Under the pieces are notes generated by a model. It saw only the letters and a list, made by a program, of their open reading frames with translations, was not told the DNA's origin and did no database searches. Shown here one piece after another: positions 17,086 through 47,508 of a DNA stretch of 64,000 nt (positions are counted from its first letter, which is position 1; each line of letters starts with the position of its first letter). Both the position numbers and the translations under genes were made by a program. Source of the stretch: Endocalyx cinctus (Eukaryota; Ascomycota; Sordariomycetes; Amphisphaeriales; Apiosporaceae); NCBI GenBank assembly GCA_001600455.1, contig BCKC01000009.1, positions 992,001 to 1,056,000 on the forward strand, in the 5' to 3' direction.

Positions 17086-17357
17086 GAACCTACCTCCAGC
17101 GCAGAATGGCTAGGTACCGACTCGCAAGGAGTGGAACCAAGGCCGCCAGAAGCTGAAGCAAGGCTAGATAGGAGAGTCCCCTCTGCGTATTTCCCAGCCT
17201 TTGCAGACCCATGAAGGCTTTCTGCGCCGAATTGATCTTCGTCTCTACGTGCGCTTTGGACTTCAGTCTCCGATCAAAGAAAATGCCTAGCGAACAGACT
17301 ACTTCAGATGGATGTACCAGATCGTCGCCCGATTCTAACTAGTTCGGTGATCTTTTC

Positions 17358-17984: not shown

Positions 17985-19325
17985 CTATAATGGAACTGGA
18001 ATTCGATGCTGGCCGAAAAGGGATACTTGAGGTGGTTCGTTTTTTAGGCAGAATAGCGAAACAAGCCTCTCTAGTCCATAATATACATTTTTCGACCTGC
18101 CCCAAATCATTATTAGTACCATGTGTGTTATGGGCCAATTCGCGAAGCAAAACTCATGCTTTGCCCTGACTAAATCCAGTACAAGACAACACGACACATG
18201 GAATGGATAAACTTTAGAATGACTTACCAAAAAAAAAAAAAAAGTCTCGCCCTTATAACTAGTTGAAATCAAAAAAATTAATCTTATGCATGCGACGGAT
18301 GAATCTTGAGGGCGTACTTCGTTTTTTTCCTAGAGAGTATTTGGTTTATTAGATGTATAACGACTTGCATGTTTTTTCCCCCCCAAGACAGAATCGACTT
18401 ACCCTTTTCCTTTGATCTAGGAGCTCCTATGATTACGGGTTAGTTGGTCGGTCGTAAATGATAAAAATGATTTACTTACATCAATCTCTGAATTAATGTT
18501 CTGAAGGACGAATGAGTATGGTATTTTCTAAAGGATGATGCGAGAACTTACTGGGGATTGCTCCCACTTCTACGCGCTAGAAGTCAATGGCTTGAACAAA
18601 TGGGTATGGAGAGGGGGTAATATACCTCAAGCTTGTCTGACCACTCCTACCATCTAAATCAGTACTGTGGACTAAGACCACTAGTTCACATTTCTACTCA
18701 CCTCCAGTGCGGCCAGCTGGTTCTACATAAGTAAGTTATTAGCGGTAGTGAAAGGTGTATTGAGCGACCGTATGATGTTACCTGTTTTCGAAACTCCAGA
18801 TTCTAAAAAACATAAGTCAGTCTTTGTTATAGCCAGCAGGGGTATGTCTTGCAGAGAAAGAGATTAATTACCCTGATCGACGTGATTGTATCCTTCAAAT
18901 AAATGTTAGCATAGATAGTTATCTCGAAGGCTATTGATTATTATATTATTACTCACGGTCAGCTGCTTTCTGATAGCCTGTTTCGAAGTAGATATTGATA
19001 AGTCGATGATCCATCATATAGTAACAATAAATATATCTTTGTAAAGACTCACCTCGACCTTGTGTTCACAATACTATGCCTGGTGTTAGTATCCATCATT
19101 ATATATAGTGAATGACTATGTTATACTTCGCGGGTGCCCGGAGGCGGCGGCAGTGGTTGCTGTTGTTGTTATTGTTGCTGAATTCGTCTCTGTATCAGGA
19201 AGATATTCAGTTACTATAAATCAGATTTCTATTTGGGTGAACAAGTCTTCCGCGTGGGGCGGTATCCTAATGAGGCATTGATAGGTGAACTTACCCGGAA
19301 CTCGCTTGGAATGTCACGGTATGGT
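17985..19325 (-). CDS. Unrecognised micro-exon gene: one coiled-coil heptad per 21-base exon
   Basis: Inferred from splice sites. Exon 19325-19295 reads PYRDIPSEFR. Next comes 19159-19127 (QPLPPPPGTRE) or, from an earlier acceptor, 19189-19127, which includes an in-frame TAA at 19171-19169. Then come nine consecutive phase-0 micro-exons: 19073-19053, 18977-18957, 18892-18872, 18802-18782, 18722-18702, 18646-18626 (21 bases each), 18569-18552 (18), 18500-18480 (21) and 18426-18403 (24), then a last exon from 18329. Each 21-mer gives seven residues with hydrophobic positions 2 and 6, for example YCEHKVE, NQLAALE, EWSDKLE. Together they make one continuous coiled coil. Introns are 51-75 bases with GTRAGT-like donors and CTAAC/CTGAC branch motifs. 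The 5' end is unresolved (further exons probably lie up to about 19730). The 3' end is uncertain: the last frame runs to 17985, but a GTAAGT at 18227 may end the exon. I do not recognise the family. Confidence 0.6.
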
Positions 19326-22300
19326 CTATGATATGAACGAAGAATCGAATTATCGGCGAAAAGAAAGACGAAGAATTGATTGATCAGTTACTTAGACTAC
19401 CTCCGATACTTTTGTGAATAGTATCAAGACCAATCCTGAAGGATGAAGATAGTAGCGAAAGTGGTAGCGAAATGATGATGTAGAAGTAATCGTTCTGGTC
19501 CAATTCTTCCACAAGTGTAATAATTTAATATATTTTGAGAAGTGGGATACTTAATAATTAGTAGGTCCCTGCTTCCCTCAATATGGCTGTAATACACCAT
19601 TACCGACAGATGACGATCAACAGCGCCATTTAGTTGAAGATAAGAGGATTAATATTAGAAGGTATGTTCAAATTACAGACTGCTTACGATTCGTAGTTGC
19701 TCTGTTTTTGATCTGTTAACTCAATGAAGATGCACCTTTGGCCAAAACTCGAACTCACGCATGATGATCGAGACTAAAGTTATCATAAAGTTGATTAGCG
19801 ACGTATTGAAACTCCGATCGAACAAAACTAAGGGATGTTTATAGAAGGTATAGGTATGGTGTATTAAAAGTGAAGGCTTCTTCAAATAAAGCACTTTACA
19901 TTTCTGGAAGGTTATGAGAATCAACGGTGATGTTACGGCGTATGTGACTTCCCACTTACATCACTTACTTCCTTTCTCACTCATATCACCTAAGGTTACT
20001 TCCCTTCCGTCCTCAACCTTATTATTAGAAGAATTATACCAGTTATGGATTTTTCAAACGGTATGCTCCCAGTACAGCTGCCGCGAGAGGTATACTAATA
20101 GGGGTAGTAGGGGCAAAGGGGTTATCGTTATTATTCAGTTCCGTTATACGCATAGTAATTCACTATACGGATATTATACTATATAATACGGTATTACGGA
20201 ATATACGCATTCTTATTATACGTATCCGAACCCTAGGACCAATCCAGAACAGGAACCCTCGACAGCGACGCAAATATTTCAGGACCTATCTAGTATACCG
20301 AGGTAGGTAGCCTATCTCACTGTATATATAGTACTTGGTACCGATCAGTAGCCAGTAATACATCACGTTAATCGTTCGTATCCATGCTATTTATTTACTT
20401 AATAGTTATTTAACTCGCTCAGATATCGTCATACCTTTATCTATTTATCGTTACCGCGCCTACTACGAAATAGTTCTAATATATATATACGTATGATATC
20501 TGAAATAATTAGTATCCATATGGTGTCGCATACTTCAGTGTTTATCTGGACTTCTTTCGTCTTAAGTAGTGCGACCAGGTACGATACTATGTAGATTCTC
20601 CCGTTTTTAACACAGCCCCGCCCCCGCCCCCACCTTCTCGCTACGTAAGTAATAACGAATACCTAGGACACTCCCAGTACACTATATTTGTCAACAACAA
20701 GGTAGAAACCTAGACAACTAGGATATATCAAAGTAATAACAATCCAATACCAGCTTCACGTTTAACTACGTGCATACTACGCATATTAAATCGTTCCGTA
20801 TCTCTATGATAAAGTGGGCTCGGTGGAGATTTATATGGATACTTGTCAAGTTCACGTGTTTACTCTTAAACCGAACCTGGTATGGTGTAGAATATACCCG
20901 CCTACCTTAATCGGACGAGATCAACAGGACTTGAAGCTACTTTTGAACTACCATGGAACCTCTTTTCCTATCCTAGATGCCTGTTTTCAGATCCTATCTT
21001 CCACATGTTTTACCTACCTTTCATGCTACCGTAACGGTTATAGGTATACCACCTGTATATCCTCACGACGAAGATGAAGTACTTATTTATCTCCTTTCAA
21101 ATTCCGAATGATTCATCTGTAGCATAGGTACAATGATGCGATATACCTAGCGAATTCACACCGCAAGTTATATATCACGTTCCAGTTACACATCCATTGT
21201 AAGCTTATACCTACGTATACACAGTAGGTAATGATGATGATGACGTCAGCTACGTAAAATCCTACTTATATCCGTACAAGTATACAATATATGTACAAAG
21301 TATATGAATAAAGGGTCAATTAACGTTCTACGTTGTGTATAAACAGTACAAGCTAGGTTTGAGATCCATCTGCAAATATAATCCTCCCATTTACGTATAT
21401 TTATTAGCAAGACACCAGACAATCCCGGCGATGTCCTGCATATTTTGCTGACGGACCATCTTTATCGGATTTTCATTCGTAATTGTACACAGTAACCCGA
21501 ATCATGCTTCCTACTGTGTGGTATGTGGATGTTACAATTAGTGTAGAAGGTCGGTTCCAATATACCCGTCCAGCCGTGGACAATCCTATTCCACGCGGTC
21601 GACAAGCTGACAAGTAGTGTACCGCGTAGTCACATTGCAGGGTTCCAGTATACATACTCTCGGATTAGGTTAGCTACGTGTAAAAGCAGCAACTTTTTAT
21701 TTCTATCTCTCTCTTTCTTTTCTTTCTCTCCCCACCGTTATGTGCTACCTAATTCAGTTATTTGCATTTGCCCCATGGTTATCCCCGTGTGTATGTATCT
21801 TGCCTTTCCTCATCGCCTATACATACACTAGCAGACAAGGATCAACTCTCATTATTTGTATTTGTATTTACTTCACAACTTTAAATTCATAGTGTAGTTG
21901 ATGCCATGATCCATCGATCGCCTTAACTCCCAAACCTGCCCCTATTTCCTGCAGAGAAATCGCCGAGCGGGACCCTTAAATGTACCAACCGCATATACCC
22001 CTCCAAAGACTGCTTCTTAGCTAGCATATCTCCTATCTCCTCCCCTATGTTACCTACTGTAGTATGCGCCGCATTGTAATACTCAGGGTACGTCTGCCTT
22101 GGAAAGGGGCCGCCCTTAGCGTAGCATCCAGTTATGCATTGTAAAGGTTACTTAACGTAAGGGTGAGGCTATTAAGACAATATTCGAAAATTGGGGATGT
22201 AACGCGTTCGAAGGATGATCCTTTACAAGTTCTATTAGACTTTCGGGAGTAACCCCTCCCACAGCAGTACCGCCCAGCCTCCTAGCCTTTCGGCATCGTC

Positions 22301-28588: not shown

Positions 28589-28739
28589 ATGAAGGTGAGA
28601 AGCTTCAGTGCGAATATTATATACAAGAAATCTAACGAAATTACAGGCTTCCAAAGCTAAGAGAACCTCAAAAAAGACGAGAATCTCTAAGAGATCCTCC
28701 GAGAGCACTCCCAAACGAGTAGAAGGGGCACTTAACAAG

Positions 28740-29624
28740 ATGCTGTTCCAAGCGAAGACCTTGTGGTTATTCACTTTCAGTGATCTCAAGACCATCGTGT
28801 TCCCTAGCACCATCTTCGGCCTCATCAACGCATTCGCGGCTCCTCACTTCGATCTTCCCCCCGAGTACCGGTTAACCCACCTCGAGCTGGTCTGGAGAGC
28901 ACCTATCGTGCTCTTCTGGGTATGGATCAACCTCCTCCCGTTCGCGATCAACAACCAGCGGACGCCCCTGGCGATCGCCGAGGACGCGATCAACAAGCCG
29001 TGGCGGCCGTTCCCGAGCGGTCGACTCTCGCCGACGGAAGCCAAGCCGGTCATGTTCGCGCTGTACGCGACCGCGCAGCTGGTCAGCGCCTTCGGGACGG
29101 GCGGGATCAGGCAGAGCATGGGTCTGGTCTTCCTCGGGACCTGGTACAACAACTTCGGCGGCGCCGACGTGCACCCGATCATCCGGAACGGCATCAATGC
29201 CTTGGGGTACGCGTGCTTCACCTCGGGCGCCATGGAGGTCGCCTTCGGCCACCCTCTCCCCCTATCCAGCGGCCTCGCCCTCTGGTTCTACATGATCATG
29301 GGCATCATCGCGACCACGGTCCACTCCCAGGACATGTACGACCAGGAAGGCGATTCGGCCAGGGGTCGGAAGACGGTGCCTCTCGTCATAGGGGACGTCC
29401 CGGCTCGGTGGACCATCGCCGTGGGCACCCTCATTTGGGGGGTCCTGTGTCCGACCTTCTGGGACGCGAAGCTCGTCTCGAGAATGGTTACTCTGGTTCT
29501 TGCGGTTATAGTGGGATCTCGTACGATGCTTTACCGAGATGTCCCTAGTGACAAGAGAACGTTTATACTTTGGAATATCTGGATTTCTTCTGTTTACAGT
29601 CTCCCGATTTGTGCTTGGATTTAA
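28740..29624 (+). CDS. UbiA-family prenyltransferase / terpene-cyclase-like membrane enzyme
   Basis: The conservative start at 28740 (MLFQAKTLWLF) gives 294 residues. The frame is open upstream, and an exon ATGAAG (28589-28594) spliced over a 52-base intron to 28647 would add about 33 basic residues. About eight hydrophobic segments are present. First polar motif: NNQRTPLAIAED followed by NKPWRPFPSGR. Second motif: DMYDQEGDSARGRKTVP, an intact DxxDxxxD that binds Mg-diphosphate. The NKPWRP block is typical of fungal UbiA-type enzymes related to the fumagillin bergamotene cyclase and other specialised-metabolism members. It would act in the ER or another membrane on a prenyl diphosphate, either transferring it or cyclising it, and sequence alone does not decide which. 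The neighbouring P450 is on the same strand 1.85 kb downstream. Confidence 0.87.
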   Translation: MLFQAKTLWLFTFSDLKTIVFPSTIFGLINAFAAPHFDLPPEYRLTHLELVWRAPIVLFWVWINLLPFAINNQRTPLAIAEDAINKPWRPFPSGRLSPTEAKPVMFALYATAQLVSAFGTGGIRQSMGLVFLGTWYNNFGGADVHPIIRNGINALGYACFTSGAMEVAFGHPLPLSSGLALWFYMIMGIIATTVHSQDMYDQEGDSARGRKTVPLVIGDVPARWTIAVGTLIWGVLCPTFWDAKLVSRMVTLVLAVIVGSRTMLYRDVPSDKRTFILWNIWISSVYSLPICAWI

Positions 29625-31472
29625 TGAACTAGCCCGGCGTGAAACTTTTACGAATACCAATTACTACGATCAGAAAAAAAAAAAAAAAGAAAAAAAGGAG
29701 AATACTACGTCTAGATAGATTCTTGTTACTTAGTCGGAGTTTCCTAGATTAAAAGGTCTCTATAAGTTCGCGATGATAATGAATACACACACATACACAC
29801 ATACCCAACCTCTCGAAGAATGGTCGCTGTTCTCTCACCTTTGGGATTGATTTCACCCATCTTTGTTTGTTCCTCAATCAGTTCCGTCGGAACCGCATGA
29901 AGGATGCGCTTACGACAACGGCAGCGACATAATTCAGGACAGAATTTTACCCTCCTTGCGTGATTCGTCATATTACGCTCTTTTGCTAGGTTAAAGGACT
30001 CTACATTATGACTAAATTTGGCCATGTCATTTATTCCCCTTATGTTCCGAAGATAACGACCGGGTCCCTTGCTGGTTAACGTTAGGTCCTTTTTTGACGA
30101 GGATTTCTTCGCTCTAAAATTCCGCCAAAAGATTTAACCTTAACTATACTTTATATGTATGGTACTTCAGCGTAACTATTTCCGGATAGCTTCAACGGTG
30201 ATCGTCCATCTACTTTGCTCTCGAGAGGTCGTTTAATCGGTCAGATTTAATTGATCCCACTTGGAAAATACGCTAGCGGAAGAAATATCGATAGATCCGC
30301 TTGAGAAAGGGGTGGGGTTAATTCAAGATGTGAACCTTTTTCCTTTCTAAGTATATAGTTGTCGTAGTAAGTTGAAGTTATCCTGTGTTTCCTACTCCGT
30401 ACTTTTAGCAATAATCACAGAGATACACGAGATGATGACGAGTATTTTTTATGGATAAATACTTCATGGTTCATGGGTTCTTAGATTGGACAAGGTATAC
30501 CCTTGACTGTCTTTATACCTTGTATACATTGTATACCGGCACACTATCTAGGAGTCTTACTACCTAACAGCCCAGCTGTCCAGGTAGTTATCCATCCTTC
30601 ACAGCCTCGGTAATGGCGTCTACTTTTTAAAAAGGGATACTAGATATGCATCTTTAAAGTAAGGGAAGAGGGAAGAAAAGGGAAAAAGCCTGTGGGTTTG
30701 AAGTGCCGTCTGGTGAACTAAGTCCCATTCAGTAATCCTGATAACGGTATTTCTCGGCAACTTCTATTTCCCTTGACCGAGTTCATTCCGCGTCTTCTTT
30801 CGCCACATGCCGTCCTATCATTTATACCATGTTTTGATGAACAATGCAAAAGGTCCACACAAGACATAAAAGAAGAGAAAAAAAAGAGGGAAAAAAAACT
30901 GCCACCATTACTTAGTAACCATGTCGAGTTACATTGATCAGTCACATGAATGTGTGCTGTTTTCTGTATGCTATACGTCAATAGATTGTGAGCGTCCTAT
31001 GGGCCGCAAATGCTGGTCGTTTCTTACAATACTAATGTACGGTCATTCTGCAATGCAACTCAATATATGAATCCTTCTTGTCGGATCCGAACCCGTAAAG
31101 GTCTTAGTATAGGTACCGTACATGATATGATTATATATTCATTATGCGACGATATCGGGCGGTAAGTAGTATACGTAAATATACCAGGCTATGCAATGGC
31201 CCGTCAGTACACGTACATGGTGTAGTATATACGTACATATGATATTACTAAAGTCACACCCTAATCTTTCCACATTACCTCGATCCTTCGTAGAAGGTAC
31301 AAAGTGGGCCCGTATTATGAGTTCTAGTATTGCGGACGCATATGCATTCGATTTATATGTAGTTCAACCTCGGGGCCTAAAAGTATTATATGAAAAAAAA
31401 AAGAAGGAAAGAAAGAAAAATTCTCACGGGGACAACCTACTGTCTTGATCAATCTATAAACGATCAGGAACA
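29625..31472. other. Spacer between UbiA and P450 genes
   Basis: A-rich run at 29672-29698. No gene supported. Short frames here have no family resemblance. It contains the promoter region of the P450 gene. Confidence 0.55.
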
Positions 31473-33579
31473 ATGATGATGAGCTCGCTGTCGACGAATG
31501 CCGCCTTTGGCTTTGCTTGGGGCATTTTCATGCACCTCGCCTTCTTCATCCGCGGAGAGTGGCACCTGTGGGCTCCCGTTCTCCTCTTCACTCACCTCGG
31601 CGCCTACTTCCTACTCGGCGTCGCGTATTGGCATCTCAGTCCCGCTACCCAGACGCCGCCGCTCGGCGAGATCGCGCTCCAGATCTCGGTGCCGTACGCG
31701 ACGTACCTCGCCGGCTTGTTCCTCAGCATCGGCACGTATCGCCTCTTCTTCCACAGGCTGCGCGCGTTCCCCGGACCGAAGCTGGCCGCCTTCTCGAAGC
31801 TTTGGCACGTTTGGCAGTGTCGAGATTCGCGGGGCCACCTCGTCGTCACGGATCTACATAAGAAGTACGGCACTTTCGTCAGAACGGGTAAGCTCATACG
31901 TCTCTGCTGCTTTGCGGCTTTCGAAGTCTCTTTTTTTTTTTTTTTTGGTTTTATGCTAATGTGAGAATTTCAAGGACCGAGTGAGATAACCATGTTCCAT
32001 CCTGCGGCATATGATATTATGGATGGCCCAAAAAGCCGGAACACGCGTTCGGACTGGTATGACTTGATTCACCCAAGGGTCTCTTCCATTTTTACGAGAG
32101 ACAAGGCAGTCCACGATGCGCGGAGAAGAATGTGGGATCAAGCGCTCAGCAGCGCATGTAGGTCCAAACTGTCTCGTTACGCTTTATATCCTCGCCGTCT
32201 GCTAACAAGGTTTAAAAGCTCTAAACAAGTATTACGAGAGAATCAACCGCCAAGTTGAGTTTCTGGAAGATATCATCTACGACTACAATGAGCGCCCCGT
32301 AGAGGTCAATGAGCTCATGTACTGCTTTGCCTTTGACTCAATGGGCCTCTTCGGCTACGGGCACGACTTCGGCATGCTGAAAAAGCAGAAGCAAGACGGG
32401 GGCGCCTGGTATATGCGCTCGGCGATAACTCTCATGGGACCTTTTGGACCTGCGAGCTGGCTCCCGAGGATAGCGTTCGCTCTGATTTCTAGCCAATGGA
32501 AAGTCAGGCATTGGTTTAAGATGCTGGAGTTCTCCGACGAGATGATGGCCCAGCGTATGGCGGTAAGGACGCTTCCCCGTTCACTCCCCAACCCCCCTCT
32601 CCCTTTAACTCACCTTATATCGTGTCGAAGAATTTTCACTCACGCTACGGAACAGAGAAAACCGGACGAGATCGATATTGCTACCGCTTTTATCAAAGAG
32701 TACGACAAGGCCAGCAGGGACGAGACCAGTCGTCTTCTGCTCAGCGGAGACGCCGCCACTATGCTTGTGGCCGGAAGGTATGCCACGCGCGCGCGATCGG
32801 TGACCCAATCGAACCTGGAATCACTCTAGCTAACTTTGTTCACTAGCGACACAACGGCTCCCAGTCTGATCATGCTCCTGTACCTCCTAGCCCGCCACCC
32901 CGAAGACGCGGCCAAGATCCAGCAAGAGCTGGAGACGGTCGACATCACCAGCGTCAAGGCCCTGACCGGATTGCCCCATCTCCAGGGCGCTATCAACGAG
33001 TCGATGAGACTGCTTTCCGCCATCCCTACCTTCAGCTCGAGAATCACGCCGCCCGAGGGCATCTACGTCGACGATACGTTTATCCCCGGCAACACGACGA
33101 TTGCGGCTCCGCGCTACGTTGTCGGCCGACGTAAGTACTCCGGCGACGAAATCAATTTTTTCATACAACCTTATTTCCGAAGATACTAATGCGAGTAAAA
33201 ATGCAGTGGAATGCGCTTACGAAGATCCTCACTCCTTCATCCCAGAGAGATGGTACAGCCGACCGGAACTGGTCAAGGATAAGCGGGCGTTTGCCCCCTT
33301 CGGAGTCGGTGAGTTAACCACATTAACGCTGATCCGCTTCTTAAAAAGCATGCACGTATTCATTTAATTAACCTTTTTTTCCGTCTTACAGGTCGTATGA
33401 GTTGTGTGGGTAAAAACTTGGCGCTTGCTCAGCTGAGACTCGTTACCGCTGGCCTTCTAAGCAAATACCACATGAAATTCGTACCCGGGCAGGGTGATGG
33501 TCGAGCCGTCGAGGAGGATATGAAAGATCAGCTTACCGCCAACCCCGGCAAGCTGGAATTAGTGTTTGAAAGGCGATAA
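31473..33579 (+). CDS. Cytochrome P450 monooxygenase, microsomal
   Basis: Seven exons (31473-31887, 31975-32157, 32219-32562, 32656-32777, 32847-33130, 33207-33308, 33392-33579) close a 545-residue frame with every phase consistent. The N-terminus has two or three hydrophobic helices (membrane anchor), then the proline hinge FPGPKLAAFSKLW. The I-helix oxygen-binding motif is AGSDTT (353-358). The K-helix ExxR is ESMR. The heme loop is FAPFGVGRMSCVGKNLAL with the thiolate Cys at about 488. All essential P450 elements are present, so the enzyme should be active with a CPR partner. It resembles fungal P450s of specialised metabolism (pisatin demethylase / tryprostatin hydroxylase style). The family number cannot be assigned by eye. 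It lies downstream of the UbiA gene on the same strand, consistent with oxidation of its product. Confidence 0.93.
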
Positions 33580-34723
33580 AAGAAAAAAAAATAATCTTGA
33601 AAAATCCTTAAAATAGCATTATTAGTCAGAAAAGAATCTGGTTATACCCGCGGAATTCGTCCTATGGTACATACCTATCTAGCGCTTACTTTGTGCATCC
33701 TTGGCTATAAGTTGTCTTGATTGACGAAAGAAGTACTGTGTAATTATTTCTAAACCATTTCTAGATTCACTACCTAGAAGCGTAGCATTTCGGGCGGACG
33801 CGTAGGAAAAAGCTATGCTAATCGTTTTGCGCATTAATGTGGTGTGTTGTCAAAAGTAAGACATCAAAGGATGCAGTTACATTAAAGGGACCAGGTTTAC
33901 CATACCTTACTCATTCATTCGAGAAGTCTCAGCAGTCAACCTTATCTGAATTTTGGTGCCACGGAGTCGCAGGTAGACCTGAGGACTAGGCAACCCTCGC
34001 CTCTTCACTGCATTATGCCGAGCATTAAGAAGTATCGGGTACAAAGGTTCCAATAGCCTATAGTTCCGAAGAAAAAAAAAGGACTATATGTATGAGCAGA
34101 GATAAAATGATGACTTTGCGGTCATGTGGCACAGTCGTTGAATGCGACGTGGATAAGAGATATCATTGCCCGGCAGTCCGGGTAGGACGGTAGAGATGCG
34201 ATAAGCGTGTATCCCTCGGATATGTAACGTATTACTACTTTATCTTGCGGAGTGAGCGCACCGCGAGATTCAAACAAGATAGGTAATACAATAATTACAG
34301 CCATCGGATTTGTAAGTTACACAATTCCGTCCACCGATTTTGAGACCGGACCAGCGTAACACCCCTACTTTGGGGGCCGCCGTACTCGGTTTTGAGATAA
34401 TTATCGAAGATAACAACTTCTGGAGGTTACACCCCCTAGTCGATTGCAGGTTCCAACTTCTCTCGTATCCCACCGAAGTTTCTTGAAGCATATTGAAAAT
34501 ACGAAGAAAAAAAAAAAAAAAAAAAGAAGGTAGATCTCACAATATGAACTTTTTTTTTACATCATGATGTTCAAATTTAAACTTACCCTTCCGTCCGAGA
34601 AGATCAAAACTGTGCACAAAATTCCGGCGTATCTGTATCCGTCTGCAAATATCGATCACCAACAACCAAGAATTTGATCGGACTACGATTCTCTAAACTT
34701 GTGATCGCATGTTGGTTTTCTAA
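33580..34723. other. Intergenic
   Basis: No gene supported. A19-type run at 34507-34525. Confidence 0.5.
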
Positions 34724-34955
34724 GAAGAAAGTGCATAAATCCCACTCTCTCAAAGCTGCACGTCAAGATTCACGTTGGCGGCGTCGACAACAGCTCCGAA
34801 GGGCCGATAGGCGGTATGATCAACGTCTTCGTCCTCGAGTATGAGCACAATGATGACGGAAGGATTACGGCGAGAAGGATCCCGAGTTCATAGGGAGTCT
34901 CAATGACATCAACGGGGAAGCCCTAGTCGTTGATTTCACACCCGGTGCGTTTTGA
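34724..34955 (+). pseudogene. Coding relic of unknown family
   Basis: Inside AT-rich DNA, a GC-richer patch reads coherently on the plus strand: INPTLSKLHVKIHVGGVDNS, then GGMINVFVLEYEHNDDG. The frame then shifts near 34861-34863 to DYGEKDPEFIGSLNDINGEA and ends VVDFTPGAF at TGA 34953-34955. Two good-looking frames joined by a shift suggest the 3' end of a decayed gene. I do not recognise the family, and no upstream exons could be joined. Confidence 0.35.
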
Positions 34956-35561
34956 GATATTTGGAATCGGAGATGTGGCGATATGTCAAACGATCAAGGC
35001 GATGATGACGTGGTAGGAAGGATCTATCACCTCTCGTAGTTGGTGAAGGAGTTGAAGCTTTGCATACATGAAATACATGTATGCATTTGGTATAAACTAT
35101 CACCAACTTGTAGGTATTATCGCAGTTACTACTGCGTGCTTCTTTACCCCAATTATCTACTTTGATTGTTAGTTTCACAGGAAGTAAGCGGGTGGAGAGA
35201 TAAGAGAAAGCAGACATGGCGACCACGGGAAATCGGATGTAAGAAACTATTCTGAACCATCGTGCTACTTTCTGTTTTCATGAGCAATTCTTTTCCGACG
35301 GTTTCACGAGGTATTATCTGTCTATCTCTTATATCAATCAGGGGTAAGCAAAGCGCTCGCAGTAGATTCTGATAAAGTCAGCCAACTCTTTAACAACGAG
35401 ACTGAATAGATCTTTATATAGTGTAGATAGAATATGAATACGTATTAAACGGAAAGAAAAATGTAAAAGGAGATAAGCAAACAGTTATTTCAGAGGAATA
35501 TCGAAAATAAAGGGAACAAAGAAGTCAAAAAAAAAAAAGAACTTCGAGGACGACAAAAAAT
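34956..35561. other. Spacer upstream of tRNA locus
   Basis: AT-rich, no gene supported. Confidence 0.5.
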
Positions 35562-35655
35562 TGGACGCACTGGGAATCGAACCCAGGACCACCTCTATAT
35601 TGGATATTTGTAGATCTCATGCTAAAGAGGTATTATACCACTAAACCATGCGCCC
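35562..35655 (-). tRNA. tRNA-Ala (anticodon AGC) with intron
   Basis: Cloverleaf read on the minus strand. The acceptor arm GGGCGCA pairs with TGCGTCC and contains a G3-U70 wobble, the alanine identity element. Anticodon stem CCTCT pairs with AGAGG. The loop starts TT-AGC-A and is followed by an intron of about 22 bases in the canonical 37/38 position. The T arm CTGGG-TTCGATT-CCCAG is perfect. Total 94 bases including the intron; about 72 mature. The discriminator base is A and CCA is not encoded, as expected in eukaryotes. The D stem is weak (three pairs including a G-U). Confidence 0.88.
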
Positions 35656-36738
35656 ACCAATGATTTCTGACTTTTGTCGGAATTTCCTATTCTGGTTATG
35701 GTGGCGAACCTCTTATTCTATATTATAATCACAGGATGAAAGTATAAGAAGCTGTGGGAAAAAAAGGTTAATGAAAATTAATTTTGTGTGGAATAAAAGA
35801 GGACGGGAAAATTTTATGTGGGTTTATGTGGCATGTGGGTCTTTTATGCACGGACCACTTACTAGATCAAGGTACTGTAAATAGTACACCTCTTCCAGGA
35901 TTTTGAATGTTAGTGCGCTACTTGCCCCACACAACCTCCATCAAACAACATATTATTGGTAATTGACCAGGTAAGTACTTTCTCACATATTTACTTAGCA
36001 AAGGTACTTACATTATAATATCAAAAAAAATATCAGCTTTTTCTAGTATTTTCTAGACCTTACATCGACGACAACCTTGACGATACCTTCCATATTTCTA
36101 ACAACTTCTAATAACTTCTTTTTTTTTCCGTATATACGTATATATATCTATCACATCACCATACATCACCATACCTAGATTGGACCCCTTCAATACTCTT
36201 ATGCTGTTCTCTTCTTTTTACCTCTCTTGTTATCTTATACAGCACCGTCTGAAACCAACACGGTCTAAGTTCGTTTCTCCTGGGTCGAAACAATTAGTCA
36301 TACTTGAATTACCGTTACGTCAAAGCTGTCCGTCATAGTACGTCAGTCCAGACAAGTCGATACCATCATAGATACGTCACCATTAGCTTTTAAGTTTCTT
36401 TCTCCGTCATTATTCGGAGGTTTTCATAGCAGAATTCGTCATAGTTCAACTGCGTTAGCCGGTTGATTTTCGTACTAACCTGGATCGGATCTGTCGGTTA
36501 GAAAAAGAATTGGGTTTGTAGAAAACATACCTGACTTCGATTCTTGAAAATTGACGGAAAACATCCCCATTCTCTTATCCTGCTCTTTTATATCACTATG
36601 AAGCCCGTCTTTTCTTCCTCTCGTTGCTTATCGAATCGTAAAACTGCCCTCTCAATTGCCAATTCATCTCAGTGTATTCTCAATCAATCCGATTTGTTAC
36701 ACCTTGTTCCCCATTGTCCCCCCATCATGGACAATTAA
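35656..36738. other. Spacer / possible 5' leader of retroelement fragment
   Basis: No gene. From 36544 the frame of the retroelement is already open (64 codons, stop TAA at 36736-36738), so the last 200 bases may be its 5' part. No clear LTR was identified. Confidence 0.45.
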
Positions 36739-37710
36739 CCTCGGTTCGTCGGTCGTCCGGGTGAGGATCCGAATGAATACATCGAGGAAATCGATTTGCT
36801 CACGCGAGAGAAACTGGGTAAGGATATAGCCGCATCACACCAGGATCGGATTAATCAACGCTGCCGACTGACCTTTCGGAAGGGATTGAAATCAGACATG
36901 ACCCGTTTACTACAGTTGTCGACCTTACCAGAACATCGTCTGGGGAAATGATTGGCCAAGTCAACCCGTAAACCCCGAAAGGTTCGTTCGGCCATTAGCA
37001 CGTTGGAGGAAGATGAGGCTAACACAGTCCCATCTTTATTAGGATCAGCCGTGCCCCAATCGGACTATACCAGTCAGGAGCACGCTGCATTGGTGGCCAA
37101 CACGGAGTATATTGATGTCTCGTTGAGTGATGATGGTCAAACGTACCTCGGATACGTTGAAGCAGCAATCGATGGTGTCGCTGTGGCTCGAGTCCTGATT
37201 GACTGCGGATCATTGATTGAATTGATGAGCTACCCTTTTGCCCTCCAGCTGGGGCTCGCACCCTCCCTCATTCGTGGAAGATCATTGCATCTTCGTTTGG
37301 CAGATGACTCGTCAACTCCCACCACCCACTTCGTGAAATTCCCATTGGTGGTTGGCGGCATCTTGTCAATTATCACTGCGTATCTGGTTGGTGAGAGCCA
37401 CACATATAACCTCTTGTTGGGCAAAGGTTGGTTGAAGCGCAATCAAGCTACCATCGATTTTGCATCATATCAGATGGTCTTGTTGGGCACAAATGGACAT
37501 CGATTTGCAACCAGACTGATTCCAGAACCTCCCACTGGACAAAAGGTGGTCGAAACAGGAGACCCTACCCCGCGCAATCCTGTTCAAACCTCTAGCTACG
37601 GCGGCAATAAGGGAACAGGTAAGGAGCTGACACCTGCCCAAATCATTGGCAAACGTATCGACCTGCCAGCTGAGGCTACTCCAAAATTAACGACCCGATC
37701 CACCCTGTAA
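36739..37710 (+). mobile_element. Ty3-like retroelement fragment: Gag plus aspartic protease
   Basis: One continuous frame with a single internal stop (TGA 36949-36951). The first part reads FVGRPGEDPNEYIEEIDLLT, like the capsid region of fungal Ty3/Gypsy Gag. After the stop, 252 codons include a retropepsin-like domain: VARVLIDCGSLIELMS (flap-strand DxGS active site with Cys in place of Ser/Thr) and LLLGKGWLKRNQATIDF. No reverse transcriptase, RNase H or integrase follows, and the frame ends at 37710. A purine-rich stretch AAGGAGGGAAG near 37767 may be a polypurine tract, with possible LTR sequence after it. The fragment is incomplete and immobile. Confidence 0.75.
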
Positions 37711-38079
37711 GAGATTGGTATGAGATAGGTTTCTTATGGAGTATTTCATAACATAGATTAATGCTTAAGGAGGGAAGTTTCTAGCTATCAGAATGTGCTA
37801 TGAGAAGGCCCCTAAGTAGGCCTGAACTAGCCCTGATTCAACTTTAGTTCTAGTTCACTGCCTAGGCCCTTACAATAAAAATACTTATATATACCTTTTT
37901 CTTATTGGTTGATGCAAAGGTGGTACCAAAGTGCCCAATTTCAGGTCTCAAGGGGATAGTACAGAGTACGGAGTTTGTTATCACTGCCTAGGTGATTAGA
38001 CTTTCATGACTTCAACTACTGTATATATTACACAGGCATTCAAAAATATCTATATCTACCCATCTATCTATATTAAAAT
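37711..38079. other. Spacer, possible LTR remnant
   Basis: Begins with the possible polypurine tract of the retroelement. The rest is AT-rich, with the TACGGAGTT word near 37963. No gene. Confidence 0.4.
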
Positions 38080-39552
38080 CTACTTCCAAGATGTATGTTT
38101 TTCTTTCAAAGATTCATAAGCCCTTTTCCAATCATCGTCCATACCCTGAATCGGCTCTAACCCAGCCTGAGCCAAATCACCGTTCACCCATCTAGCTACC
38201 TCATCAATATATAGATCTTCCTTTAACATCAAGCCATGGAACTTATCTCCCTCTTTGTGTAGAGACTTTCTCTTCTTATGCTCTTCTCTCATAACAGATT
38301 CTGGAGGTAGTTGTACCTGACCCGCTAACACTTTGGCTACCACTTTGGCCTGGAAGTCGAAGCAAGAGAACGTGGAAACCATCTGAGTAACCCCGACGAA
38401 TGCCAGCGTAGGGTCCGGAATGTAGAAAATATCCTTGTGTAGGTTATGAGTGATACTTCCGTCGCCCGTAATCACCACATTATCGTCCGCTTCTTTCAGC
38501 GGTACTAAGGGTTGCTCTAGCCCTCTTAGAAAGGGATAGGACGTGATGTATCCAGTCGCTACTACGACGTAGTCGATATCCCCCATAATCTTGCCGTCCG
38601 ATAGAACAATCTTTTCAGGTATATGATCGTCTTCTTCAAGATCTTCCGGGTTACATCCGCCGTCGGTAACGAATTCTTCCGGCATGGCCACTCTGATCAC
38701 CTCCGGCGGTAATCTTCCAACGGATAAATCTCTCTTAGTCTCGCGTCTCGCAAGATATATCTTGCCGCCCAACGCGTCGACCTCTTTGCAGATGTCTATG
38801 GCGGAAGCGCCAGCTCCGATAACCAGTATCGTTTTCCCGGCGAACCGGTCGGCCGTCCGATACTTCTTCGCGTGCCACACCCGATCTGGGAACCGTCTCT
38901 TCCACGCCGAGAGCCCCCGGATATCCGGGATGAACGGGATGTGGTAGTGGCCGCTTCCGACGACTATTGCATTAAATTGAGAAAACCTTTTCTCGATAGA
39001 GTGTCCGGTATCTGTTCTTGAGAACGTCGTCGTCACGATATCCCAAGTTGAGCCTCCCTCGGGCTTCGAGACGTCTTCGACGCGCGTATAGAAACGTATC
39101 CTCTCTATCATATCGTGCGTCGTCGCGATATCCTCGACGTACCGCCTGATCCGCTCCTGATCGATATACTCTTCCGTCCCCTCGGGCCAGCGGAGCAGCG
39201 TGCTCTTCATGAGCGTCGTCGACACGTTATTCCTCAAGCCCGCGTAGCACGGGCCCGGCGGCGCGTGCAGCAGCGCTACCTCTTCCGCGGTCAGCCCTTC
39301 GGCGTACACGTCGTCCCAGTTCGCCTTCGGGGGCGCGGTGCTAGGGAAGGGCGGCTCGGCGTCGATTCGGGGGTCGAATACCCACGCGCCTCCGATCGTG
39401 CCGGATCGCTCGAATATCGTCACTTCGACGCCTTCGCGCGCAAGATACACCGCCGAGGTAACGCCGCTGATCCCGGCCCCGATGATGGCTACGCTTTTGA
39501 CGGGTTGCCCGGAGGGCCCCTTTCCGTATACGCCGGTGTTGATGGATCCCAT
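38080..39552 (-). CDS. Flavin-containing monooxygenase (FMO-like)
   Basis: An intronless 490-residue frame from ATG 39552. The N-terminal FAD-binding site is VAIIGAGISGVTSAVYLA (GxGxxG at residues 25-30), with IFERSGTIGGAWVF. The second dinucleotide fold is ILVIGAGASAIDICKEV (NADPH). VVVATGYITSYPF is the ATG-Y motif of N-hydroxylating and class B flavoprotein monooxygenases. Gly-Ser-Gly-His (VVGSGHYHIPFIPDI) stands where FMO/BVMO fingerprints sit. It would hydroxylate N or S, or perform Baeyer-Villiger insertion, in the cytosol or on the ER. Placement between the P450 and the 2OG dioxygenase suggests a tailoring role in the same pathway, which is inference. Confidence 0.92.
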   Translation of the reverse strand: MGSINTGVYGKGPSGQPVKSVAIIGAGISGVTSAVYLAREGVEVTIFERSGTIGGAWVFDPRIDAEPPFPSTAPPKANWDDVYAEGLTAEEVALLHAPPGPCYAGLRNNVSTTLMKSTLLRWPEGTEEYIDQERIRRYVEDIATTHDMIERIRFYTRVEDVSKPEGGSTWDIVTTTFSRTDTGHSIEKRFSQFNAIVVGSGHYHIPFIPDIRGLSAWKRRFPDRVWHAKKYRTADRFAGKTILVIGAGASAIDICKEVDALGGKIYLARRETKRDLSVGRLPPEVIRVAMPEEFVTDGGCNPEDLEEDDHIPEKIVLSDGKIMGDIDYVVVATGYITSYPFLRGLEQPLVPLKEADDNVVITGDGSITHNLHKDIFYIPDPTLAFVGVTQMVSTFSCFDFQAKVVAKVLAGQVQLPPESVMREEHKKRKSLHKEGDKFHGLMLKEDLYIDEVARWVNGDLAQAGLEPIQGMDDDWKRAYESLKEKHTSWK

Positions 39553-41430
39553 GGCTGTTGGGAAACGATGAGCGATGGTTCCTAGAAAGATAATACGTAG
39601 GACCTCGCTGTATTTTGTTAAAATATATGTTCATCAAAACGAGTACGTACCACTGGTTTTATTACGCAAATTCCAGGCAGTTTATCATACCCCTTTTACA
39701 GTATGGTATAAGGAAAGAACTTACTCGGACTGGCTCGAAATGGATACGAGCAACCTCAATAATTGGTAGACGGAGCAGCAAGCCGAAAAAGTATCGGCTA
39801 TGATATACAGGTTGAGAAACACCAAATAATCAGGGTAAATCTTAAGGAGGCGTTAGCCAAGACGTATCTACCCCCTTTATATTGGCGTGGTAGAACTAGA
39901 GATATGTTGCGAGTAGCTCAATCAAATATCGCATTGCTGATTACCATACCGTCTTTTATTTATTTAAACTATTATATTTACAAGCAGAACAGTATTGGCC
40001 ATCGTATTATGTATGGTATAATCAATGAAGTCAGTAGTCACGCAAATTACGTGCTCTCTCTGACCGAGAAACCCATGCAGCTGGTTTTAGCACAGTACCG
40101 CCCATCTTCTGAACCTCTTCCACTACATCCGCGTTACATCCGTGTTCTACACTTGATCCGATATGTATTTCGCCAATGCTCACTGTTGCTGACTAGATCA
40201 TGCACCGCACTTACAAGACAGACAATGCAATGGGTGTGGTGGCGTAAGGTATGCTTGGTCGATCTCGACAAAACACCATCTGAGGTGACAGGTAAAATAG
40301 GAAGAATAAATATATAAGATGTTACAGACATTTCTATCAGTTTCTCATCGGTTTCTACAGGTGCAACTACCACTTGGATCGTAAGCTTATTCAGAGAAAC
40401 AGTAATTACTGACATTACTGACATTGAAACATTAATAAAAATCCTCAAAATAAATGACAGCTAGCTAGTCAACAGACTGGGATATCTCTTTCGACAATCC
40501 CAATGCGGGGTCTCCGGGTGTATTGAACCGCAGACAGCAGCGACGTCGCCCTCGTTTACATGGCAGCAGAATCTCTCGGTATATCTCCGAGTCTTCGATC
40601 TAGATCGCTGCATATCGTGCCTAGAGCTATTTCCTAACAGGGCTAAGGATGCATCCACGAATATGTCGCCGAACCATGTTTCGAGCTTTTTCTCGTTCGT
40701 TGTTATCTCTAACCGGTATGCCAATACGATCAAAGGTACAACGAGGGGGATAGTCCACTCACCGGCAGCGACGAATACCACATATTCCTAATGCTATAAG
40801 ACGGTCACGTCATTTCCCCCTCAGCAAAGCTAAGTTATGTTCCGTACAGGAGCAGACGATTGATTTGGTCGAACGGAGAGGGGAAATGAGAGGGGGGGAG
40901 AAATAAAGCTTTAAAAAAAGGCAAAAAGGCATCTCGCGCCATAATGTCGATAAATCGCGAATTGGGATGTGGGCACCAATAAATATTGCGATAACTGACG
41001 CGACTGAGGAGAAATTCTCCAGTTTAAGTCGATTCCCATCACGATTTGGAGTAGAAGAGGCCATCCATTGCATGGTCACAAGCAAGTATGTCGACGATGC
41101 CTACGCGTTTTTATCGCACCACGGTAGGGTATTGGATGATTTAGGATTTCTAATCCGGACAATTTCTAATCAGGTGAACGAACACAAACGGTCGTTATCT
41201 TTGTCGTGCTCGTGAAAAAGCGATGCGATCACGGAGTTCGAGTTCTTGGTTCGGGTTGCCCACAAATGCATATATCTAGTGCATATAGAGAGCGAGTAGG
41301 ACGTATAACAATCATAAATCTTGATACTTTCAAGCTTAGGAACTGTAATAGACCTTGGGAAAAAACAAATTCTCCACCCTATCAACCACCACGTAAAAGA
41401 CCACCTGTAAACCCATCCCATCTTCCAGCA
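39553..41430. other. Spacer between FMO and dioxygenase genes
   Basis: Mostly AT-rich. A minus-strand stretch at 40461-40781 (RFCCHVNEGDVAAVC...) is GC-richer and may be a relic exon, but no gene model closes. A plus-strand 82-codon frame at 40967 is also unsupported. Confidence 0.45.
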
Positions 41431-42818
41431 ATGGCACCAGCCCCAATTGACGAGCGCATCACCGACGTGGCCGAGCCGCGAAAGGACACCCTAGGGCTCC
41501 CGGAACCAGCGCTGCAGCGACTCAAGAAAGCCGGCGTGGACCTATCCAAAGGGTATCCGTACCGGCCGTCGCGACCTCTCTACCTGCAGGACGTGTACCA
41601 GATCCGCAACAAGGAATGGGTCCACGTCGAGGCCGGCGCGCGCGCCGACAAGTCCAAGTCCGCCCTCTTGTCCGCCGCCACGAAAGTCACCGACCTCACC
41701 ACCCACATCGGCACCGAGATCGAGGGCCTCCAGCTGAAAGACCTCTCCGATAAGCAGAAGGACGAACTCGCTTTGCTGATCGCCGAGAGGAGCGTCGTCT
41801 TTTTTAGGGATCAGGATATTTCCCCTCAGCAGCAGCTGGAGCTCGGAAAGTACTATGGGGTACCTGAGGTGCACGTGAGTTTTCTTCTTTCTTTCTTTCT
41901 TTCTTTATTTATTTACGATCACGAAACCCGAAAACCCCGTTGTTAAAAAAATTTTTTTTTTTGACATATCCTCTCTAATAGGTATGTACGTACTTATACT
42001 GACCCCTCCCTTCTTTCTTAGCCCCAAGTCCCCCAAGTCCCCGGCGAGCTCGGCGTAACCGTGATCTGGCCGGACCTGCAAGCGACGGAGCGCGCGGCGC
42101 ACTTCCGAAACCCGGGGGGCGCGTCTCGGTGGCACACGGACCTGGTGCACGAGCTGCAACCGGCGGGGATCACGCACCTGCACAACGACACGATCCCGCC
42201 CGTCGGCGGCGACACCCTCTGGGCGAGCGGGTACGCGGCGTACGAGAAGCTGTCTCCGGGGTTCCGCGCGATCGTCGACGGCCGGAGCGCCGTCTACCGG
42301 TCGGCGCACCCGTACCTCGACCGCGACGACCCGGGCGCCGGGCCCAAGCATATCGAGCGGACGCACCCTCTGGTCCGCGTGCACCCGGCGACGGGATGGA
42401 AGGCGCTGTGGGTCAATCGCGCCATGACGCATCGCATCGTCGGTTTGGATAAGGCCGAGAGCGACGTGATACTGGGTTACCTGTGCGACGTGTACGAGCA
42501 GAACGTCGATATCCAGGTTCGCTTCAAGTGGACGCCGGGTACGAGCGCGCTTTGGGATAATCGGTAAGTTCCCCTATATTTAGGACACCTACCCGAAGAA
42601 TGGATATGTAGCGAAAAAAGACGTGACAAAAATACTGACATTTTTGAAGCATTACGATACATAACGCAAGTTGGGATTACGGTGGCAAATATCCGAGGCA
42701 TGGAACTAGGGTCACTTCACTTGCGGAGAAGCCATACTTCGATGCCTCCGCGCCCACGAGACGTGAGGCCTTGGGGCTGGTAGACGAGTCAGAGAAGCAA
42801 ATTGATGGACCGATTTAA
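41431..42818 (+). CDS. TauD-family Fe(II)/2-oxoglutarate dioxygenase
   Basis: Exons 41431-41874, 42022-42563 and 42650-42818 close a 384-residue frame. The iron-binding facial triad is visible: SRWHTD (His186, Asp188) and TIHNASWDY (distal His333). Arg residues in KYPRHGTRVT can hold 2-oxoglutarate. VVFFRDQDIS is the typical TauD helix. The family performs radical hydroxylation, desaturation or C-S cleavage. Fungal members include sulfonate dioxygenases and many metabolite-tailoring enzymes. The ATG at 41431 is chosen because the upstream in-frame extension (from 41206) has no family-like sequence. Located in the cytosol. The first exon and second exon are strikingly GC-rich. Confidence 0.92.
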
Positions 42819-45510: not shown

Positions 45511-47508
45511 ATGAGCGCACATCGGACGGAACCTCGTTCAATATCTCCCGACCTCGAATATCAGCAAGAAGAACTTCGATCAACTCGCTCGTCCCCGGCT
45601 CATCCGGACGCTCCCCTCGAGGGCTCGAGAGACATCGGTTACAGCGAAAGCGATTTCGACGACGACAGCTCACCCACGCCGCGCTTTATGCAGGACCAAG
45701 GCGCCTGGAAAAATTTTAAATGGGTGCCCTACCCGGCTAGGAGGGCGGGCGCGACCGTCGTGCGGTGGATTCAGGGTCCAGAGAATCCCAAAATACACAA
45801 GATCGAGCCTATACTTCCACTCGTCCAACATGCACCTCCCCATCTCGTACAAAAGCTCTTGCCGCAGCGGAAGCATCGCGTCTGGCTGTTCTTGGCTTAC
45901 ATGGCCGCCTGGATACTCACGTTTTCTCTCGTCTTGTGGCATGGACAAGTAGAATCGGAGATTCCGGGTTGGGGGATGCCGAGCGACATCAGCTGCGGCG
46001 CGACGTACTGGGCCAAGAATAATGGTTGCGGCGTCGACGGGGTGGACTGCAGGCCCTTCGATAATTCCAGCTTTGCTTTTCGCTGCTCCGCGAGTTGTGC
46101 CAGCTATAAGACGCTGAATCCTCGCGCGGTCGGCACCCAAGAAGTCGTCTACGCTCCTTTGATTGTCGGCGGACCGCCGGATACGGATAACGATCTTGAT
46201 CCCGTCTATCGGGGCGATTCCTACATATGCGGGTCGGCCATCCACGCTGGCCTCATTTCCGACTCTACGGGAGGCTGCGGTGTTGTTACTTTGATAGGTG
46301 AACAGCAAGATTACGTTGGCTCCGATCGGCACGGGATCAGCAGCGTCGGGTTCGATTCCTACTTCCCGTCCTCTTTCACCTTCCTCCCCGACATCAAGTG
46401 TAAAGCGAAAGACAACCGATGGTCGCTGCTAGCTGTTTCGGTCGTTTTTACCTCGATCTTGTCGCTGTTCACGGCTTCTTCGGCCGCCTTCTTTTTCGGT
46501 ACTTTTATCATCGCCTTTTGGCAGGTCGGCATGGCTTCCGACCCGCCCTCGTACACCACCATCGGCGGCTTGTTCTCTACCAATTTGGGGAACTTCTTAC
46601 CCGCCATGTTTTGCGCTTGGGTATTTTACGATAAAATGGGTGTCCGGCACACCTTGAGGGGATTGACCGCGCAGGTTGAAAAAACGATCTTATGGCTAGG
46701 CGGATTATGGGTTGGTGCCTTGACCAACTACACGTTTGATTTTATCCCGATCCAGCGATTGACCGGGCACGACCTTGAGCAGCAACCTGGCGCCAAAGCG
46801 GCGCTTGCGGTTATTGTTATTGTCTTGTTCGTTATCGTTGTCTATCAATTATGGTGCTTCCAGAGGGAGGCTCGGCTAGTGCGCTACTTGAAGTTATATG
46901 CCATCTTCCTCCTTGCGATTATCATCTCATTAGCGTTGCCTCTCAACCTACGTATTCACCATTATATCCTCGCACTTCTCCTCCTACCGGGGACCGCCAT
47001 ACAAACACGGCCGTCTTTACTGTACCAAGGCATTCTGATCGGGTTCTTTGTCAACGGTATTGCCCGATGGGGCTTCGATCCCTTCCTCCAAACTTCGACG
47101 GCGCTTCAAGGGGACGCGCAACTAGGATCCCCACTACCCACCATTTTAGCCCCGATAATTAACACCAGTATCCCCGCTATCACCTTTCAATGGAATGTAT
47201 CGGATGCGATTCGCTACGACGGTATCAGCATCTTGGTAAATGATGTCGAGCGCTTCCGTGGATTTTTCGACGACGAGAAAAGCAACGAGTTCACGTGGTC
47301 CCGGGATAACGGGTCGGACTACAACGAATACTTCCGCTTTGGTTACGTCTCGGGCACGACGGCGGGCGATTTTTCCAAAGCCGGAACATGGACGGCGGAT
47401 CTGGAATGGGTTGATCCGCTGCCGGGCGCATCGAAGGTCAAACGGTATACGTCTGAGATAGACGGTGCTAAACTGCTACCCCGAAGTCTGCGGGAACGCC
47501 GTTATTAG
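45511..47508 (+). CDS. LCCL-domain polytopic membrane protein
   Basis: An intronless 665-residue frame. The Met at 45511 (MSAHRTEPRS) is preferred, since sequence upstream in the same frame looks untranslated. The first 115 residues are acidic/Ser-rich and cytosolic. A helix near residues 130-150 (FLAYMAAWILTFSLVLW) leads into a luminal Cys-rich LCCL domain (SDISCGATYWAKNNGCGVDG to SAIHAGLISDSTGGCGVVTL). About eight further helices follow, then a C-terminal domain with several Asn-x-Ser/Thr sites. This layout is conserved in fungal LCCL-domain proteins of unknown function. The domain is thought to bind lipids or polysaccharides in secreted animal proteins. Located in the secretory pathway or plasma membrane. 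Confidence 0.9.
   Translation: MSAHRTEPRSISPDLEYQQEELRSTRSSPAHPDAPLEGSRDIGYSESDFDDDSSPTPRFMQDQGAWKNFKWVPYPARRAGATVVRWIQGPENPKIHKIEPILPLVQHAPPHLVQKLLPQRKHRVWLFLAYMAAWILTFSLVLWHGQVESEIPGWGMPSDISCGATYWAKNNGCGVDGVDCRPFDNSSFAFRCSASCASYKTLNPRAVGTQEVVYAPLIVGGPPDTDNDLDPVYRGDSYICGSAIHAGLISDSTGGCGVVTLIGEQQDYVGSDRHGISSVGFDSYFPSSFTFLPDIKCKAKDNRWSLLAVSVVFTSILSLFTASSAAFFFGTFIIAFWQVGMASDPPSYTTIGGLFSTNLGNFLPAMFCAWVFYDKMGVRHTLRGLTAQVEKTILWLGGLWVGALTNYTFDFIPIQRLTGHDLEQQPGAKAALAVIVIVLFVIVVYQLWCFQREARLVRYLKLYAIFLLAIIISLALPLNLRIHHYILALLLLPGTAIQTRPSLLYQGILIGFFVNGIARWGFDPFLQTSTALQGDAQLGSPLPTILAPIINTSIPAITFQWNVSDAIRYDGISILVNDVERFRGFFDDEKSNEFTWSRDNGSDYNEYFRFGYVSGTTAGDFSKAGTWTADLEWVDPLPGASKVKRYTSEIDGAKLLPRSLRERRY

Follow-up and report, generated by a model that had tools for sequence, protein, structure and literature searches.

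In this work, a run of nine consecutive predicted micro-exons was found on the minus strand (19073-18403) of the window, the 64,000-nucleotide stretch of Endocalyx cinctus DNA analysed here, which comes from an assembly of 44.8 Mb in 15 contigs. The run probably belongs to a protein-coding gene that gives almost every heptad of a short predicted coiled coil a micro-exon of its own and whose introns are spliced by intron definition. The array lies between a repeated element and an open frame starting at 18329. Seven of the exons are 21 nt long, one is 18 and one is 24; all of them are in phase 0 and multiples of three, the introns that follow them measure 51-75 nt each, and the joined exons comprise 189 nt or 63 residues. 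The first-pass annotation had proposed nine consecutive minus-strand exons with this phase, these lengths and the same range of intron lengths, and the chain scan recovered them beyond the controls. The interval it gave, 18329..19073, is right at the start of the array (19073), but the ninth exon ends at 18403, and the following exon begins with base 18329. The features are, in the direction of the predicted transcript:

19940-20097, second repeat, matched twice in L008 and each time in the opposite orientation
19314..19583, no strand assigned, repeated element a short way upstream of the array; six other places in the genome (L002-L007) match parts of it at 68-83% identity
19127..19159, minus strand, doubtful upstream exon from the chain scan, 33 nt, QPLPPPPGTRE, with a weak donor GTATAA (score -2.2)
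19053..19073, minus strand, micro-exon 1, 21 nt, YCEHKVE, with a CTAAC branch motif 16 nt upstream
18957..18977, minus strand, micro-exon 2, 21 nt, AIRKQLT, preceded by an intron with no clear branch motif and an acceptor score of -1.7
18872..18892, minus strand, micro-exon 3, 21 nt, DTITSIR, followed by the weak donor GTAATT
18782..18802, minus strand, micro-exon 4, 21 nt, NLEFRKQ, followed by the weak donor GTAACA (score -2.1)
18702..18722, minus strand, micro-exon 5, 21 nt, NQLAALE, with a second possible acceptor 6 nt inside that would leave 15 nt, LAALE
18626..18646, minus strand, micro-exon 6, 21 nt, EWSDKLE, followed by the weak donor GTATAT
18552..18569, minus strand, micro-exon 7, 18 nt, KWEQSP, with a proline in a core position; the next intron has no clear branch motif
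18480..18500, minus strand, micro-exon 8, 21 nt, NINSEID
18403..18426, minus strand, micro-exon 9, 24 nt, ELLDQRKR
18318..18329, minus strand, predicted start of the exon after micro-exon 9, EKNE, from the chain scan; its 3' end is ambiguous, at a GTACGC donor or beyond it, continuing as EKNEVRPQDSS in an open frame to 17985

Chains of splice sites were scored as the sum of donor, branch site and acceptor in bits, with generic ascomycete weight matrices that were drawn from general knowledge and are untrained on this species. With exon lengths of 18, 21 or 24 nt, the array scored 49.2 bits over ten introns, and 48.7 bits without the stop filter. The best simulated control with these lengths had 11.5 bits (from 40 first-order Markov sequences, each 64 kb long and scored on a single strand), the best without the stop filter 15.4 bits (60 second-order Markov sequences), and the best from the same genome 12.6 bits. 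The same-genome controls covered 259,406 bases on both strands, namely six 9.9-kb stretches around copies of the repeat and, away from these, 20 stretches of 10 kb, which is 0.6% of the genome. When the exon length could be any multiple of three between 9 and 60 nt, the window reached 54.1 or 53.4 bits, the simulated sequences at most 17.4 and the same-genome stretches at most 22.3; no other array above 12.6 bits (18/21/24) or 22.3 bits (multiples of three, 9-60 nt) was found in this 0.6% of the genome. Among single exon lengths from 9 to 60 nt on both strands, 21 nt on the minus strand came first with 26.6 bits and 7 introns, the runner-up had 18.2 bits and 2 introns, and the best length set {L-3, L, L+3} without 21 had 22.7 bits and 3 introns. 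With free, unpenalised lengths of 6-120 nt, the window scored 101 with 49 introns and the top five controls 54-71, which does not discriminate between them, and therefore the significance of the array rests on the regularity of length together with the splice sites. A first scan with hard-coded consensus sequences did not pick up the array: it accepted only introns with a consensus donor and branch motif, and some introns of the array lack these. It is very unlikely that the nine-exon run arose by chance. In the general sense of several exons in a row none of which exceeds 36 nt, the locus is predicted from its DNA to be a tandem micro-exon gene.

Frame 0 of the joined exons is free of stops over all 63 codons, as had been claimed for each exon, and the other two sense frames contain 2 and 5 stops. 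The GC content by codon position in the joined frame is 0.51/0.30/0.60. Compared with eight neighbouring open frames, codon usage weakly favoured frame 0 (p = 0.029); one antisense frame was equally good (p = 0.017), but it has 3 stops. The best independent sign of coding is the heptad pattern. The hydrophobic exon positions 2 (C I T L Q W I) and 6 (V L I K L L I), already pointed out in the first-pass annotation, gave p = 0.00035 for the seven 21-nt exons in a within-exon permutation that was maximised over position pairs and left out the 18- and 24-nt exons. Furthermore, the power at a period of 3.5 residues was significant for the first 42 residues (p = 0.010) and for 68 residues, i.e. the nine exons plus EKNEV (p = 0.021), with peaks at 3.55 and 3.45, respectively; the five other frames, with stops removed, gave p values from 0.10 to 0.98. 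The joined peptide also matched the Pfam model Nuf2_DHR10-like (E = 1.9e-4) with 21.9 bits, below the curated cut-off of 28.4, and we take this model to represent a coiled coil. None of nine shuffled peptides matched it, and one of the nine matched an unrelated family at 0.046. The check for a coiled coil in the joined peptide, which had been proposed with the exons, is thus positive in the period and in this weak match, and the predicted peptide has the hydrophobic heptad pattern of a coiled coil. The weak evidence from codon usage and the lack of discrimination with unrestricted exon lengths would also suit a non-coding RNA that is spliced, or sites that line up by chance. Both are highly improbable given the gap in score to every control at restricted lengths and the independent heptad signal in the sole open sense frame.

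From position 6 of one exon to position 2 of the next is a step of three residues, and from position 2 to position 6 within an exon it is four; therefore, position 6 corresponds to a and position 2 to d. Throughout the regular part, exons meet between positions b and c, where the coil is exposed and faces away from its core. The first six heptads are continuous. KWEQSP is one residue short and its core proline breaks the run, and NINSEID with ELLDQRKR forms a second short piece. Thus, the coil probably consists of two segments, because the 18-nt exon carries the core proline and the register changes at the 24-nt exon, and the earlier remark that these two exons disturb the register agrees with this. 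A recent tandem duplication of the units was considered and rejected, since neither the alignment scores of the exons (p = 0.10) nor those of the intron cores (p = 0.955) stood out against shuffles; the units are unlike each other at the DNA level, as had been stated before.

The donor is GTRAGT in six of the nine introns, and in the other three it is GTAATT, GTAACA and GTATAT. A branch motif (CTRAY or TTRAC) is located at -16 to -23 in seven of the nine introns, or in eight of ten when the intron before exon 1 is included. The standard donors and branch motifs that had been described for the array are therefore present in most introns, but three donors deviate from the consensus and two introns have no clear branch motif. 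The GC content is 0.47 in the exons vs 0.36 in the introns. The array of sites, the open frame and the periodicity can be read directly from the DNA. We hypothesize that each intron of 51-75 nt would be recognised and excised as one unit, and exons of 21 nt could work because each short intron is removed in this way. In Pezizomycotina, splice sites are described as pairing across the intron, i.e. by intron definition, in the accessible part of PMC6616335. The array would be transcribed and mostly constitutively spliced, and its product may act as a small self-associating coil. As for the heptad register of the introns, one idea is that they were gained at AG|R sites offered by surface Glu and Gln codons. 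That the codons of the coil supply evenly spaced splice sites is borne out partly at best, because AG|R is present at just four of the eight exon junctions.

Because each of the nine exons is in phase 0 and has a length divisible by three, any of them can be skipped without loss of frame, as the first-pass annotation had noted. It had gone on to propose a ruler tuned by splicing, in which alternative skipping of these symmetric exons would give coils that differ by whole heptads. Weak donors follow three of the exons, and related events are reported: the skipping of 15-nt and 33-nt exons of rtnA in Aspergillus niger and Neurospora crassa (PMC6616335, in part) and, in the excerpts on Tuber nank genes, alternative splicing of codon-sized micro-exons. 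However, splice sites in these fungi are said to pair across introns in the same part of PMC6616335, where the rtnA skip is put down to a stwintron, and in one study, the RNA-seq of Trichoderma longibrachiatum, intron retention accounted for 9369 of the 10034 alternative events (PMC4324775, as excerpted). Retention of any of the ten scored introns here would introduce an in-frame stop (8/10) or a change of frame (2/10). With such weak donors, dead transcripts would thus be a likelier outcome than the clean skipping of a heptad, because retention dominates in that study and the introns, if retained, lead to a stop or a frame change. A splice-tuned ruler is therefore unlikely, and constitutive splicing is likelier than regulated skipping on account of intron definition, the effect of retention on the frame and the dominance of retention in T. 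longibrachiatum. We also doubt that the array represents a class of genes in which the exon equals the heptad unit and coil length is set heptad by heptad, either by splicing or by gain and loss of exons in evolution.

The repeats lie immediately upstream of the array, and a RIP-like dinucleotide bias is present at 20001-21000 (composite index 0.65-0.81), while the index of the array is 0.0. No start chain that reaches exon 1 was found with introns of at most 250 nt, donors of at least 0.5 and acceptors of at least 1.0, so no first coding exon was found within these limits. A start chain of 17.3 bits with introns of up to 650 nt was rejected; its last intron has 614 nt and one of its exons is inside the repeat at 19940-20097. 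Start chains in 40 simulated upstream sequences reached at most 8.2 bits under the same intron limit. Loss of the 5' part of the array is possible because of the repeats and the RIP-like bias in the upstream region. The array could then be a remnant of a decaying gene that has lost its 5' part or been separated from it by insertion of the repeat at 19314-19583. The adjacent repeats, the bias, the start exon missing within reach and the three weak donors agree with decay, but nine exons have kept their frame with no stop or frame change and the array itself is free of RIP bias, so we regard decay as rather unlikely and favour the heptad-per-exon gene described above.

Other features were noted in the window. 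Genes for a UbiA prenyltransferase, a P450-like piece (below the cut-off), an FMO-like and a TauD-like protein are situated within 14 kb at 28599-42567 and perhaps form a biosynthetic cluster. A tRNA gene of about 95 nt at 35561-35656 on the minus strand presumably contains an intron. Two open frames had no Pfam match: 17090-17338 on the minus strand, which we take to resemble a LINE reverse-transcriptase remnant, and 36952-37710 on the plus strand, which we take to resemble a retroelement aspartic protease.

The search for relatives of the joined peptide gave no match at E <= 1 in the own genome, in a six-frame search that is blind to introns and cannot detect seven-residue exons. No match at E <= 10 was obtained in the protein database for proteins of about 41-130 and about 132-420 aa, among 1 and 13 candidates, respectively, and this search misses gene models that skip exons this short. 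Among the PDB sequences, there were 3 matches up to E = 10, the best of which (0.39) was a GCN4 chimera. As a control of the database, the neighbouring LCCL-domain protein (45529-47508, plus strand) had 1722 matches, many of the 120 listed being from named fungi. The best relatives among these 120 of 1722 came from Xylaria, Hypoxylon, Daldinia and their kin, and the best listed match was that of Xylaria multiplex, with 75% identity over 92%. Judged by these relatives, the fungus would be a xylarialean ascomycete. Another reading is a secreted micro-exon gene that evolves fast and works as the effector families do in schistosomes or aphids. It would fit the many tiny exons sharing one phase and the fact that no relatives were found, in searches that detect such exons poorly. 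Phase 0, the short introns and the result that no second array of this type appeared in the scanned 0.6% of the genome speak against it, and this reading is quite improbable.

Exons equal to a structural period are a classic question of intron evolution. For a coiled-coil gene of the kind preferred here, the run of nine near-heptad exons, in a fungus whose introns are short, offers a compact test between introns settling where the codons of the coil allow them and introns kept for modular change of length. Moreover, the array may stand for genes that go unrecognised in ordinary annotation. No described fungal gene with tandem heptad-sized exons was found in searches of an open-access library, a scope that mostly excludes subscription journals.

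The closest known systems share some properties with the array. Single micro-exons occur in filamentous ascomycetes, in Xlr2 of Trichoderma virens (PMC11121469) and as exon II of rtnA (PMC6616335), but the accessible parts of these sources describe one micro-exon in each gene and no tandem array. In the Hypoxylaceae, which belong to Xylariales, the order of the listed relatives of the LCCL neighbour, sister stwintrons provide a route for the gain of new introns (PMC8469720, in part). Those stwintrons are similar to each other, whereas the introns of the array are not (p = 0.955 for their cores, as above), and the terminal inverted repeats of 45-55 nt of the ancestral stwintron were not found here, as a repeat search of 18300-19130 gave one inverted pair, a 12-nt palindrome.

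Tuber melanosporum nank, likewise of an ascomycete, has many codon-multiple micro-exons (PMC4986451, PMC10197012, PMC3689799, each in excerpt), but these are codon-sized (3 bp) and lie in NACHT-ankyrin proteins, whereas the array has exons of 18-24 nt and encodes a predicted coiled coil; Pfam turned up neither a NACHT nor an ankyrin domain in the joined exons of the array, the part of the gene to which this result applies. The micro-exon genes (MEG) of schistosomes, a secreted multigene family, likewise have runs of short exons, but in the accessible text of PMC10526429 their introns extend up to 5 kb, against 51-75 nt here. The bicycle genes of aphids are likewise rich in small internal exons that nearly all share one phase, and they have little similarity to other genes. 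Their phase is 2, however, and that of the array is 0, no heptad-sized unit is mentioned in the available sections of PMC9168663, and the CYC motif that characterises bicycle genes is absent from the 63-residue joined peptide, which has one cysteine. As far as these sources extend, nank, MEG and bicycle genes, like the single fungal micro-exons, have in common with the array the principle of tiny exons, and nank, MEG and bicycle genes each differ from it in at least one of the defining features compared.
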